A stretch of DNA of 44,968 nt from Candidatus Magnetobacterium casense. Lineage in GTDB: Bacteria; Nitrospirota; Thermodesulfovibrionia; Thermodesulfovibrionales; Magnetobacteriaceae. Position numbers and translations under genes: made by a program. A model generated the notes under the pieces. That model saw nothing but the letters and a program-made list of their open reading frames with translations. It had not been told where the DNA came from and did not search any database. The first letter of the stretch is position 1. Each line of letters starts with the position of its first letter. Of the stretch, positions 33,344 to 42,626 are shown one piece after another. The DNA is taken from contig NZ_JMFO01000026.1 of NCBI RefSeq assembly GCF_000714715.1, positions 1 to 44,968 on the forward strand, read 5' to 3'.

Positions 33344-33631
33344 TTACATCCTGAGCATGTCTGAATCGTCATCCGGCAATAGTTCCTTTACCTCCCTGCA
33401 CTTTGCCATGGTCTCCTGTATGCCCAGCTCTATCACCTGGATCATCTCGCAGGCAAGCAGTTGAGTCCAGTCCACGAGGTTGCAGTATTGCTCTGTGGTC
33501 TCCGTCTGCAACGATATCGACACCTTGGCCTGTGCCTGACGCACTGCATGTTTGGCGCTGGAAACCAGATTCTCAACATGCTGAAGGGTATCCCCCAGCT
33601 CCTTTAATGACTCTGCAAGTTTTGTATCCAT
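33344..33631 (-). CDS. Conserved-looking small protein at end of the phosphorelay operon
   Basis: A 95-residue helical acidic protein I do not recognise. The ATG at 33631 follows a perfect AGGAGG at 7 bases, and it lies 10 bases after the REC-kinase stop, so it is the last gene of the five-gene operon. The N-terminal half (LAESLKELGDTLQHVENLV) and the C-terminal half (EMIQVIELGIQETMAKC) look like amphipathic helices, consistent with a four-helix bundle. Possible roles are a phosphotransfer or adaptor partner, but I see no clear Hpt motif. Confidence 0.65.
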   Translation of the reverse strand: MDTKLAESLKELGDTLQHVENLVSSAKHAVRQAQAKVSISLQTETTEQYCNLVDWTQLLACEMIQVIELGIQETMAKCREVKELLPDDDSDMLRM

Positions 33632-33641
33632 AATCGTCCTC

Positions 33642-39351: not shown

Positions 39352-40716
39352 TTAAAGCTCTATCCTGAACTCGGCTCCACCGTCAATGTTTCTTGCCGTC
39401 AGTTTGCCGCCCATATCAAGCTCGATAAACTGTCGCGCTATATACAGTCCAAGCCCCGTCCCTGACTTAGGCCCCTTACTGGTTTGATATGGTTCAAATA
39501 TCTTTTCGATCAGAGGCTCACTGATACCGCCTCCGTTGTCCTGGACAGTGATGACCGGTCTGTTGTCTGCGGTGAAGAGGCAGATGTTGATTTGTCTGTC
39601 TGTCTGGCGGCTTTCCATGAGGGCATCCCGTGCATTATTGATTATCTGCGACAGGGCCTCGCCCATATCAAGCTCGATAAACTGTCGCGCTATATACAGT
39701 CCAAGCCCCGTCCCTGACTTAGGCCCCTTACTGGTTTGATATGGTTCAAATATCTTTTCGATCAGAGGCTCACTGATACCGCCTCCGTTGTCCTGGACAG
39801 TGATGACCGGTCTGTTGTCTGCGGTGAAGAGGCAGATGTTGATTTGTCTGTCTGTCTGGCGGCTTTCCATGAGGGCATCCCGTGCATTATTGATTATCTG
39901 CGACAGGGCCTCAATCAGCTTGGTACGGCAACCCGTTAGCGTGTGATTTTCGACGACGTCTACCTTTACCGCTATGCAACAGTCTTTGAGTGCTTCGCCA
40001 AGGAGTACCAGGACAGTGCCTATCGTCTCTGCAATGTCAAATGTTACATCGTCAGAGTCCGCCCTCGGTACGGAGGCCAGAAACAACTCTATTGTGCCGG
40101 ACATCTTTTGCACCACTGACATGGAACGGTCTATGAAATCATCCAGGAACTTTTTATCCAGCACCCCTTCATCATAGACAAGTTCCATGTTTTGAATCAA
40201 CAGTCCGACCTCGTTGAGCGGATTTCTCCAGTGGTGTGCGATGTTTTTGAACAGTTCGTTTATAGCGGCAAGTCTGATCTTGAAGACGTTACACCGCATG
40301 TACTCTTCCTCGTACTTTATTGCCGTGCACACCTTGAGCAGGACGTCCAGTAACTGCTCGTTGTTTATGGGCTTTGTTATAAACTTATCAATCCCTATGT
40401 TTATCAGCTCAAGCAGGTACTCGGAGTCATTGTATGCAGACGTGATCAGGATTGGCTGCTTTCTGTTAATCAGCTTGATCTCCCTGGCCAGCCTGATGCC
40501 ATCAAACATGGGCATCTTGATATCCGTGATGACTATGTCGTACCTGTCCCTCTTGTACAACTCCAGGGCTTCCTTGCCGTCACGGGCAACATCGACCCTT
40601 TTGAAGAATTTCATATAAAACTTACTGTATTCATTCCTCATGTCATCCTCATCCTCGGCGTACAGGATGCTCAATGACTGGGCTAATTCCTTCAGTATCA
40701 TGAGATTGGCCTTCAT
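39352..40716 (-). CDS. REC-histidine kinase with duplicated ATPase core
   Basis: A 454-residue protein. A receiver domain with D65 (VITDIKMPMFDG) is followed by a dimerisation helix with His161 (NIAHHWRNPLNE) and the ATPase domain. Residues 269-352 and 353-436 are exact copies: each contains the N box (IINNARDAL), G1 (VQDNGGGI), and G2 (SGTGLGLYIAR). The paralogue at 33642-34751 has one copy and is 85 residues shorter. The duplication keeps frame, so the protein remains full length. Whether both ATP sites fold is unknown. The ATG overlaps the upstream kinase stop by four bases, and the giant hybrid kinase follows after 17 bases. Confidence 0.9.
   Translation of the reverse strand: MKANLMILKELAQSLSILYAEDEDDMRNEYSKFYMKFFKRVDVARDGKEALELYKRDRYDIVITDIKMPMFDGIRLAREIKLINRKQPILITSAYNDSEYLLELINIGIDKFITKPINNEQLLDVLLKVCTAIKYEEEYMRCNVFKIRLAAINELFKNIAHHWRNPLNEVGLLIQNMELVYDEGVLDKKFLDDFIDRSMSVVQKMSGTIELFLASVPRADSDDVTFDIAETIGTVLVLLGEALKDCCIAVKVDVVENHTLTGCRTKLIEALSQIINNARDALMESRQTDRQINICLFTADNRPVITVQDNGGGISEPLIEKIFEPYQTSKGPKSGTGLGLYIARQFIELDMGEALSQIINNARDALMESRQTDRQINICLFTADNRPVITVQDNGGGISEPLIEKIFEPYQTSKGPKSGTGLGLYIARQFIELDMGGKLTARNIDGGAEFRIEL
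39409..39912. repeat. Perfect 252-bp in-frame tandem duplication
   Basis: 39409-39660 and 39661-39912 are identical at every position I compared, 84 codons each. The absence of any substitution implies a very recent event, or an assembly artefact. Confidence 0.9.
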
Positions 40717-42626
40717 TGAGGTTTACTCTCCTTGTTCAAAGTTTTTGGCACTTTTATGCTCATACAAGCGCCGTCGTCGCAGTTTGAGGCCTCGATGCTG
40801 CCCTTTAAATGGTCGTCAATTATTACCCTGCAGATGTACAAACCCAAACCCGTCCCCTTTGCCTCGCTCTTGGTGGAGTAGTATTGCGTGAATATGTTTT
40901 CCAGAACATAATCGGAAAAACCACCGCCGTTGTCGATTACCTTGACATAGATATACAGTTCATCTTCGTCTTCGATTATTCTTATGTACGGATTGGCTAT
41001 TTTCCGTTCTTTTATGGCCTCCAGGGAGTTAGACAGGAGGTTCAGAAAGACCTGCATCATTTCGTTGGGATACGTCTGAATGGGTGTGTATATCTTTTTG
41101 TCAAAGGTGACTTGTACCTTGTTATCTCTCAGTGGAATTTCTATGACCTTTAAGCTCTTGTCTATGACGGTATGCAGGACGACCGAGTCAACCCTTTTGT
41201 CCGTCCTGTAGAAGTTTCTGAAATCGTTGATTGTCTCCGACAGGAATATTACGTGTCTCTCTATGTCATCCATGGCGGCAGAGACTTCATCTTCGGATAC
41301 GCCGGCAATGGTCATATTCACCTTCAGGTTTGCGATAATGGCATTGATAGTGGCCAGGGGTTGTCTCCACTGATGTGCAATGAGGCTTAACATTTCACCC
41401 ATCTGAGCCTGCCTCATCTTCATCATAAACAACCTGTCCCGATTCTTTTGCTCTGTGATATCCCGCCCTACCATTATCATCACCCTGCTGTTGTCGATAA
41501 CGCTCGTGCAACTGGAAAAAGACACCAGCATGGGGATTTTGGTGCCGTTCTTTGTATTATAGAGTATCTCTTCGGCAAGCAGGCTGTTGAGATCAACGTT
41601 ACAGATGATGTCTATATTTCGGCCGATTATTTCTCTCTCAGTGTATCCGAGCAGGTTGCATGTGGCAGAGTTTACCGCCTCTATGATTGCCTCTTGTGTG
41701 ACCACAATGAGCGTATCCTGCATGGAGTTGATAATATTGTTGTAGTAGTCCTTCTGGGTGCGAAGTATTTGCCGCTCAAGTTCCTTGAGGTCCGTAATGT
41801 CCACAACCCCTGCCGTTGCCCCGGCATAAGAGCCGTTCCTGTCCGTAATGGGCGACATCACCACTGTTACGTACATGACGGAGCCGTCTCTGCGCAGAAG
41901 TTCCATTTCAAACTGCTGCGGCACCATGTCCACGCTTAAGCGTCCGATGGTTATTTCAAAGGTGTCCGCCCAGTGTTTGTCCATATATGCGGATGGACGT
42001 GTCTGCTTCATCTCCTCGGTGCCGTATCCCATCATCTCTGCCATACGTGGGTTTATCAGTGTTGTTACACCACCCTTGTCTATAGTCCAGACCCCTGCGT
42101 GTGACAGTTCAAACAACTGACGATATTTGTGTTCGCTGTATTTTAATGCCTTTTCTATGCGTCTGCGCTCTATATTTTCGTTCAGGATTGTTGCGTTGGC
42201 ATTTGTCAACTGTTGTATCAACTGTTGTTCGAGCAACATCTGTCTCTTCAAATCCAACTGATTTTTGACACGCAATTTCACCACGGCAGGGTTAACAGGC
42301 TTGGAGATATAATCGACGGCGCCTAACTCCAAGCCAACAGCTTCACTGTCTTTTTCGCTCATGGACGTCAAAAATATAACCGATACATCCGCCAATGAAG
42401 GTTCCTGCTTTAACTGGCGGCACAAGTCGTACCCGCTGCTATCAGGCATGATGATATCAAGCAGTATCAGGTCAGGCTTTATAGACAAGGCTACATCCAG
42501 GGCGTCTCTGGCGTTAGTGGCAAAGTACGTCATGTAGTTGTCTTGCAATGCCTCATTGGTTATCTCAATGGTGGAGATGTTGTCGTCAACTATCAGCACC
42601 TTTTGTTTTTCAGTTTCGTAAGACAT
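40713..42626 (-). CDS. REC-PAS-PAS histidine kinase
   Basis: A 637-residue protein and first gene of the operon. A receiver domain has D57 (LLDIIMPDSSG) and SKPVNP. Two PAS domains follow (HAGVWTIDKGGVTTLINPRM and, later, TLIVVTQEAIIEAVN), then a kinase core with H418 (LIAHQWRQPLATI), and HATPase (LLSNSLEAI, DNGGGF, KGTGLGLYI). The N-terminal receiver suggests it is controlled by an upstream kinase. It matches the last 490 or so residues of the giant hybrid kinase, with one extra PAS domain here. A GGAG precedes the ATG at 42626. Confidence 0.92.
   Translation of the reverse strand: MSYETEKQKVLIVDDNISTIEITNEALQDNYMTYFATNARDALDVALSIKPDLILLDIIMPDSSGYDLCRQLKQEPSLADVSVIFLTSMSEKDSEAVGLELGAVDYISKPVNPAVVKLRVKNQLDLKRQMLLEQQLIQQLTNANATILNENIERRRIEKALKYSEHKYRQLFELSHAGVWTIDKGGVTTLINPRMAEMMGYGTEEMKQTRPSAYMDKHWADTFEITIGRLSVDMVPQQFEMELLRRDGSVMYVTVVMSPITDRNGSYAGATAGVVDITDLKELERQILRTQKDYYNNIINSMQDTLIVVTQEAIIEAVNSATCNLLGYTEREIIGRNIDIICNVDLNSLLAEEILYNTKNGTKIPMLVSFSSCTSVIDNSRVMIMVGRDITEQKNRDRLFMMKMRQAQMGEMLSLIAHQWRQPLATINAIIANLKVNMTIAGVSEDEVSAAMDDIERHVIFLSETINDFRNFYRTDKRVDSVVLHTVIDKSLKVIEIPLRDNKVQVTFDKKIYTPIQTYPNEMMQVFLNLLSNSLEAIKERKIANPYIRIIEDEDELYIYVKVIDNGGGFSDYVLENIFTQYYSTKSEAKGTGLGLYICRVIIDDHLKGSIEASNCDDGACMSIKVPKTLNKESKPQ

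Follow-up and report, generated by a model that had tools for sequence, protein, structure and literature searches.

The window analysed here is one whole contig of 44,968 bp from Candidatus Magnetobacterium casense. On its minus strand, at 33344-42626, we recovered five open reading frames (ORFs) in the same direction, all of them where an initial annotation of this DNA had placed them. We refer to them, in reading order, as A, B, A2, B2, and E. The operon contains two paralogous modules, A-B and A2-B2, one of which is fused behind a BarA-type kinase, and we think with moderate confidence that it works as a kinase cascade leading to an unlinked regulator. The genes and their domains, with REC for receiver and HK for histidine kinase, are as follows.

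40713..42626, minus strand: A, 637 aa, REC-PAS-PAS-kinase with an HQWRQPL H-box, unfused; relative P0241 at 94% identity
42270..42599, minus strand: receiver of A (Pfam); the protein start, MSYETEKQK, resembles the stand-alone regulators of relatives
40740..41402, minus strand: kinase core of A, H418, with N-, G1-, and G2-boxes present
39352..40716, minus strand: B, 454 aa, REC-kinase with a repeated ATPase lobe; the 370-aa form is P0122
34748..39334, minus strand: A2, 1528 aa, fused, PAS-PAS-kinase-REC-REC-Hpt-REC-PAS-kinase
37784..38461, minus strand: BarA-type kinase core of A2, HisKA and HATPase (Pfam)
37355..37723, minus strand: REC1 of A2 (Pfam, alignment)
36926..37261, minus strand: REC2 of A2 (Pfam, alignment)
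36563..36760, minus strand: Hpt of A2, AHGLKG at residue 887
36233..36265, minus strand: fusion junction of A2 between the BarA-type C-terminus and REC3, placed by comparison with the separate adjacent genes of five relatives
35885..36232, minus strand: REC3 of A2, kin to the receivers of BarA-linked regulators
34781..35776, minus strand: C-terminal PAS and kinase of A2, H1309
33642..34751, minus strand: B2, 369 aa, REC-kinase, H161 inside IAHHWRNPL
33344..33631, minus strand: E, 95 aa, predicted helical hairpin without a Pfam family

The two genes of each pair overlap by the four bases ATGA (A/B at 40713-40716 and A2/B2 at 34748-34751), a feature already pointed out in the initial annotation, and gaps of 17 bp and 10 bp separate B from A2 and B2 from E. 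B and B2 were 82% identical over 356 aa. A and A2 were 71% identical over 354 aa in the PAS-kinase part and 56% over 203 aa in the receiver and linker, and A has one PAS domain more than the A-type part of A2. The similarity of the two pairs was far above chance. The claim that they are paralogous modules was thus borne out by their alignment, with neither low identity nor an independent origin of each gene being found.

Pfam detected six receivers (one each in A, B, and B2 and three in A2) and one Hpt. The number of kinase cores is five (one each in A, B, and B2 and two in A2), counted from Pfam and from the H-box of B and B2. The latter two proteins are REC-HATPase in Pfam, without a HisKA match, and their kinase cores rest on the H-box IAHHWRNPL and the HATPase; their architecture is Rec-HK, with an N-terminal Response_reg at 17-125, the H-box at 159, and the HATPase. 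Catalytic motifs were present in all six receivers, in four kinase cores by alignment, in the B core by a separate alignment, and in the Hpt. The initial annotation had described a five-gene phosphorelay with five receivers, four kinase cores, and one Hpt. Only the Hpt count stands, and four of the genes are signalling genes, the fifth (E, 95 aa) having no Pfam family. Its statement that the operon encodes no DNA-binding or other output domain holds for the families in Pfam, and phosphate would leave to an unlinked partner.

The description of the first half of A2 as BarA-type is fair as a statement of architecture. HisKA, HATPase, receiver, and Hpt follow in this order with their catalytic residues, and the residues expected for a His-Asp-His-Asp multistep phosphorelay are present. 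The BarA equivalog NF008318 was the top NCBIfam match of A2, with 568.7 bits, below the curated cut-off of 890. A2 shares the HisKA-HATPase-REC-Hpt core with BarA/GacS-type kinases but carries two receivers ahead of the Hpt and has a further receiver and kinase fused on. No strong hydrophobic segment was found in A2 (maximum 19-residue hydropathy, 1.52), unlike P0005 of M. bavaricum, which has one at the N-terminus. The Hpt-REC-kinase order of A2 occurred in 11 of the best 120 of 6548 matches, namely five Magnetobacterium-type proteins (P0001-P0005) and six others. The six others have SHE/SHD-type H-boxes and are 23-44% identical in the matched pieces of the receiver-kinase part. We rejected the idea that the domain order of A2 is unique, as the same core order is found in at least three other proteins, all among these six.

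We propose a phosphate flow for the operon because of its analogy with the LvrA-LvrB pair of Leptospira. The His of the BarA-type core would pass phosphate to REC1/REC2 and then to the Hpt, and from there to REC3 in cis or to the receiver of A in trans. The phosphorylated receiver would switch on the attached HQWRQPL kinase, which would phosphorylate the receiver of B or B2, and the B/B2 kinase would deliver phosphate to an unlinked (orphan) regulator. The Lvr operon encodes LvrA (PAS-HK-REC-HK) and LvrB (REC-HK), and passages of the reports on it mention gene duplication in its history and the lack of DNA-binding domains (PMC5863495). Further passages state that LvrA phosphorylates the LvrB receiver, that this raises the autokinase activity of LvrB, and that LvrB passes phosphate to LvrC (PMC5863495, PMC13269768). 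Regulatory mechanisms of receiver-controlled kinases are described as largely unknown in one of these reports (PMC13269768). A2-B2 has the same architecture, a two-gene operon encoding first a hybrid that ends in REC-HK and then a REC-HK, with no DNA-binding domain. It differs from Lvr in that the receiver-kinase part of A2 is preceded by two receivers and an Hpt, in that A2 carries further PAS domains, and in that the module is doubled in tandem. LvrB (8vc9) was absent from the 50 matches of the B profile at 1e-10 and from the best 60 of 249 matches for B2, and matched the kinase of A at 2.7e-13. B shares the architecture of LvrB, and sequence orthology between the two is not apparent. The CheA3-CheS3 system of Rhodospirillum centenum is similar in that a hybrid kinase phosphorylates the receiver of another kinase (PMC3868531), but it is a chemotaxis-like cascade with a known end point, CheY3. 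Among titles and abstract openings, we recognised no literature on this operon or on Magnetobacterium two-component genes.

The main role of B and B2 might instead be to drain phosphate from shared receivers, as sinks or phosphatases, and not to serve as forward relay kinases. This role, which we regard as unlikely although it deserves attention, would suit an operon without an output domain in Pfam. Receiver-kinases may be bifunctional, and a potentially phosphatase-active state of LvrB is discussed in a section of one report (PMC13269768). The autokinase motifs of B and B2, however, are present and, by alignment, conserved within the genus, and activation of LvrB by its partner kinase has been shown, according to the passages concerned (PMC5863495).

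Candidates for the exit of this relay are REC-(PAS-)GGDEF proteins elsewhere in the genome or NtrC-type regulators, one of which is encoded in a congener (G001:C170). At 1e-10, B2 had at least 81 matches in the window's genome, from 150 scored candidates out of 198, and we opened eight regions with proteins carrying B-like receivers. Such receivers were found on a REC-PAS-GGDEF protein on C12 (49% over 117 aa), on REC-GGDEF proteins on C5 and C20, on a REC-HisKA_2 kinase (C10), on a REC-PAS protein (C39), and on receivers without another Pfam domain (C19 and C45). Five neighbours of the GGDEF proteins on C12, C5, and C20 were run through Pfam, and none was a kinase.

The fusion of an A-type gene behind a BarA-type kinase, as initially annotated, was supported by separate adjacent genes in six relatives, which place the junction. 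Relatives of the BarA-type half of A2 were found at 62% identity in the same genome (G000:C8), at 58-65%, over parts, in G004, G014, G015, and G016, and at 44% in G012. Eight BarA-type loci were opened (seven plus L052 of G009). A separate receiver gene directly follows the BarA-type gene at six of them (G004, G009, G012, G014, G015, and G016), and coordinates give two more adjacent pairs (G016:C61 and G011:C24). Two receiver genes stand in a row in G004 and G014, and the BarA-type and receiver genes overlap by one base in G004, G009, G014, and G015. The adjoining outputs were REC-HD-GYP in G004, G014, G015, and G016 (Pfam was run on G015, and G016 was judged alike from sequence), REC-kinase-REC in G004 and G014, and REC-GGDEF in G012; the neighbour in G009 (L052) is a REC-kinase-like protein by blastp only.

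The receivers of these neighbours (L104, L105, L106, L108, L109, and L052) are kin to REC3 and the receiver of A. Those of the HD-GYP and HK-REC proteins were 59-72% identical to the A/A2 receivers of the genus and 65-71% to those of the window, and that of the GGDEF protein 48-54% and 50-54%, respectively; the G009 receiver was 51% identical to REC3 and 48-51% to the A/A2 receivers of the window. The BarA-type cores were 57-74% identical to that of A2 in L104-L109 other than L107 and 55% in L052. These loci differ from A2 in having separate genes and in carrying HD-GYP, GGDEF, or another kinase type, not the PAS-HQWRQPL kinase. The BarA-type gene of G014 (L108, G014:C151, 1939-5423) is split between REC1 and REC2 into ORFs of 819 and 351 aa, which may be a frameshift, a real split, or an assembly error.

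In G004, the BarA C-terminus reads ...SLKVTLEE and is followed by a stop codon, whereas A2 continues ...SLNIAEKEKILIVDD. The separate regulators mostly start with MSxxxEKQKILIVDD (some with a GTG start), and A starts with MSYETEKQKVLIVDD. From the stop codon in G004 and the regulator starts compared with the continuous A2, the fusion seems to have arisen by loss of a short in-frame stretch at the stop and start codons of two adjacent genes. As the BarA-type gene of relatives adjoins a separate gene for a kindred receiver, the partners in the fusion were likely BarA and the regulator beside it, the output of which had likely become a PAS-kinase. The fused form is common to congeners and is thus not specific to this operon.

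We read A2 as a fusion rather than a product from which A was later cut. The opposite course, in which the fused A2-B2 came first and A is a duplicate that lost its BarA half, seems to us rather improbable. Five proteins of the genus have the fused form and three the unfused one, which would fit fission, as would the dispersed repeat end some 70 bp upstream of A, a site at which the upstream half could have gone. Truncation also occurs here, as A of G002 lacks the receiver but keeps the linker that follows it. On the other hand, A keeps MSYETEKQK, the start of stand-alone regulators, including the KQ found in 10/10 of the stand-alone proteins listed, where 5/5 fused proteins have KE. When the 334 bp upstream of A were compared with the loci in hand by short-word blastn, only the repeat and the neighbouring gene were matched, and no BarA-type locus except through the repeat. 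The repeat end is the following feature.

42697..42771, minus strand: remnant of a dispersed repeat end, likely the end of an insertion sequence, just upstream of A and with a sharp boundary

The 19-mer TTCTTTTTGCAAGAGGCTC within it had 16 exact copies in the genome, and the reversed control had none.

We also examined where the kinase of A and B might come from. Their next nearest relatives, at about 30-40% identity, are neighbours at some loci: G000:C20 and G003:C199 have a PAS-GAF-PAS kinase (with a Cache match) and a B-like REC-kinase, and G008:C28 has a kinase and a B-like gene. Seven B-like loci outside the orthologues were opened, and a kinase lies directly beside the B-like gene in three (L053, L054, and L056). 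In a fourth (L055; G001:C170, 6733-13506), an NtrC-type gene (REC-PAS-sigma54-Fis) stands between a Cache/PAS/GAF kinase and a B-like REC-kinase. The receiver of this NtrC-type protein is 50% identical to that of B2, a hint that the regulator may be the former output. In these HK and B-like pairs and the HK-NtrC-REC-HK locus, the B-like proteins were 37-40% identical to B2. The sensor kinases of L054-L056 have PAS, GAF, and a Cache match (above the cut-off in L054 only), and they have no front receiver and no BarA part. A scan of viral contigs with the B alignment gave one weak match only (28%). The receiver of the A gene is kin to BarA-linked regulators, while its PAS-kinase and B are more like another type of pair, HK/REC-HK. 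As B-like genes pair with kinases elsewhere, the A-B module seems to combine a BarA-linked regulator with such a pair.

The best full-length relatives were from Candidatus Magnetobacterium (P0002 of LHC-1, P0005 of M. bavaricum, and P0126 of M. casense). B-type proteins at least 76% identical to B2 occurred only in the window's genome and three congeners among the 60 genomes searched, the window's included. G001 has a fused A2 (1652 aa) and B. The G001 contig stops in a dispersed repeat just ahead of the fused gene, and an additional upstream module may lie beyond this end. G003, which is 56% complete, has a fused A2 (1863 aa), a cut B, and, upstream, another kinase-like gene of 574 aa. In G002, A is unfused (512 aa, PAS-PAS-kinase) and is accompanied by B and E. 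Thus, two congeners show the fused form only and one the unfused form only. The search among relatives for an unfused ancestor, suggested with the initial annotation, yielded the unfused A of G002, but without its receiver. M. bavaricum has two B proteins, P0127 and P0128. The extra PAS of A is kept in G001 and P0005 and is absent from A2, P0002, and G003.

Trees of the kinase part contained three unfused members (A of the window, P0241, and G002) and five fused ones (A2 of the window, P0002, P0005, G001, and G003). One branch split the two groups in 98% of 200 bootstrap trees, in agreement with the proposed duplication. The receivers split into fused (five) and unfused (two) in 100% of bootstrap trees. 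As both trees separate fused from unfused forms, the module doubling likely predates the split of the Magnetobacterium species, and the two forms appear to be separate lineages older than the species.

B and B2 showed a different pattern along their length. Identity was 93% in the ATPase part (a figure about two points low), 80% in the receiver, and 78% in the DHp. Codons for identical residues differed by 7-16% at 61-165 and 221-369 and by 35-39% at 1-60 and 166-220, which suggests gene conversion between B and B2.

B also contains an exact tandem repeat.

39661..39912, minus strand: 252-bp in-frame tandem repeat in B, first copy; 0/252 differences between the copies
39409..39660, minus strand: second copy of the repeat; 0/252 differences

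This repeat doubles the ATPase lobe of B, giving the operon a sixth ATPase lobe. In the protein collection, P0122 (370 aa) is B minus one repeat copy and otherwise identical. P0001 (A2) and P0121 (B2) are each on three contigs and P0122 on two, the longest for all being 54,026 bp; the third contig bearing P0001 and P0121 is presumably the window's own. Two of the three contigs thus apparently lack the repeat, which could reflect faulty assembly or variation confined to one population. It is very unlikely that the doubled layout itself, whole or in part, is an assembly artefact of similar sequences. The repeat missing from P0122 would fit an artefact, as would the ends of the G001 and G003 contigs at or near these genes and the fact that A is not listed on the 54,026-bp contig, the nearest entry (P0241, 94%) being on a contig of 15,487 bp. 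B, A2, and B2, however, are apparently together on the 54,026-bp contig of a second, longer assembly, and the A/A2 kinase halves differ by 29% and are not one gene read twice.

Independent recruitment of two similar pairs is highly improbable: the separation of fused and unfused forms appears to predate the species and each A-kinase copy of the window is nearer to that of a congener (76-80%) than to the other copy (71%), but the pairs share gene order, the ATGA overlap, and 82% and 71% identity, and no match outside the genus approached the similarity between the pairs (60 genomes searched for B2, 19 for the C-terminal part of A2).

The duplication and fusion can be arranged into a history. 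An HK/REC-HK pair would have supplied a BarA-linked regulator with its PAS-kinase output and its B partner, the resulting module would have doubled before the Magnetobacterium species parted, and in one copy a short in-frame loss at the stop and start codons would have fused BarA to the regulator. We tentatively suggest that the terminal regulator exchanged its c-di-GMP enzyme output for a whole kinase and was then fused, that a finished pathway thereby became the sensor of a second one, and that the unfused tandem copy is a trans-fed version of the same switch; the chances of this fuller account seem to us slightly below even.

Several results weigh against this history or the relay proposed above. 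Shuffled labels matched the fused/unfused split in 20-23/500 cases for the kinase and 45-54/500 for the receiver. The branch separating fused from unfused forms in the kinase tree had a support of 67/99, with a bootstrap of just 67%, and the tree tool warned of long outgroup branches, making the root unsure. The B tree does not clearly follow that of A: the fused/unfused split appeared in 16% of bootstrap trees, the approximately unbiased (AU) test gave p 0.353 for this split with whole B and p 0.098 with the ATPase part, and the receiver and DHp gave an unsupported grouping (64/75). The AU tests on B do not reject an A-like topology. Two of the eight BarA-type loci (G000:C8 and G001:C140) lack an adjoining receiver gene; a second BarA-like gene of G000:C8 lies at the contig end, where its neighbour cannot be judged. 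No kinase lies directly beside the B-like gene in three of the seven B-like loci (L052, L057, and L058), and in no genome examined did BarA adjoin an unfused A, which would be the direct intermediate. The nearest B-type receivers in the genome are spread over several proteins, with no single clear partner. The genomes are few and many are fragmented, and the B trees are weak.

Protein E was predicted to be a helical hairpin by single-sequence structure prediction (mean predicted local distance difference test score, 75.6). A Foldseek search with this model gave no match at an E-value of 0.001 or better, and the best weak matches were mostly helical hairpins. The idea that E is a hidden Hpt or DHp was not supported, given this search and the His of KHAVRQ, which is Gln in one of three orthologues; another His, at 18, is invariant in the three. 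Among 19 genomes of the family, three, all from one genus, encode E (33344-33631 of the window, L050:8314-8592, and L103:8709-8996). It lies behind B2 in the window and behind B in G002, and in G001 it is on another contig with no kinase matches nearby. Thus, E is not strictly tied to the kinase module.

Other features were noted around the operon and its relatives. In G001, the fused gene also carries the 19-mer of the repeat end at its 5' end, beside the contig end. The final 100 bp of G001:C11, which reach from upstream into the fused gene, match positions 11-110 of G001:C170 (L055) exactly, the two contigs sharing an end repeat. Beside the kinase modules, tandem genes at 42918-43871 and 44074-44967 encode 93% identical proteins with GIQEG-type repeats and weak matches, below the cut-off, to YhgA-like transposase (Transposase_31). 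The window also encodes a 1252-aa PocR-PAS-kinase with four PAS_4 stretches at 9299-13057.

The operon offers a stepwise example of how signalling chains may lengthen, by neighbouring genes, exchange of output, gene fusion, and doubling of a module. The separate-gene state persists in other genera of the family, and fused and unfused forms both occur inside one genus. It extends the receiver-controlled kinases by a tandem case that contains an Hpt. What sets it apart is the path that can be reconstructed and the tandem cis/trans pair, not an abundance of kinases. These natural cis and trans versions of one receiver-kinase switch are suited to testing how fusion affects phosphorelay specificity. 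In Magnetobacterium, the fusion likely turned the former end switch of a relay into the input of a further kinase.

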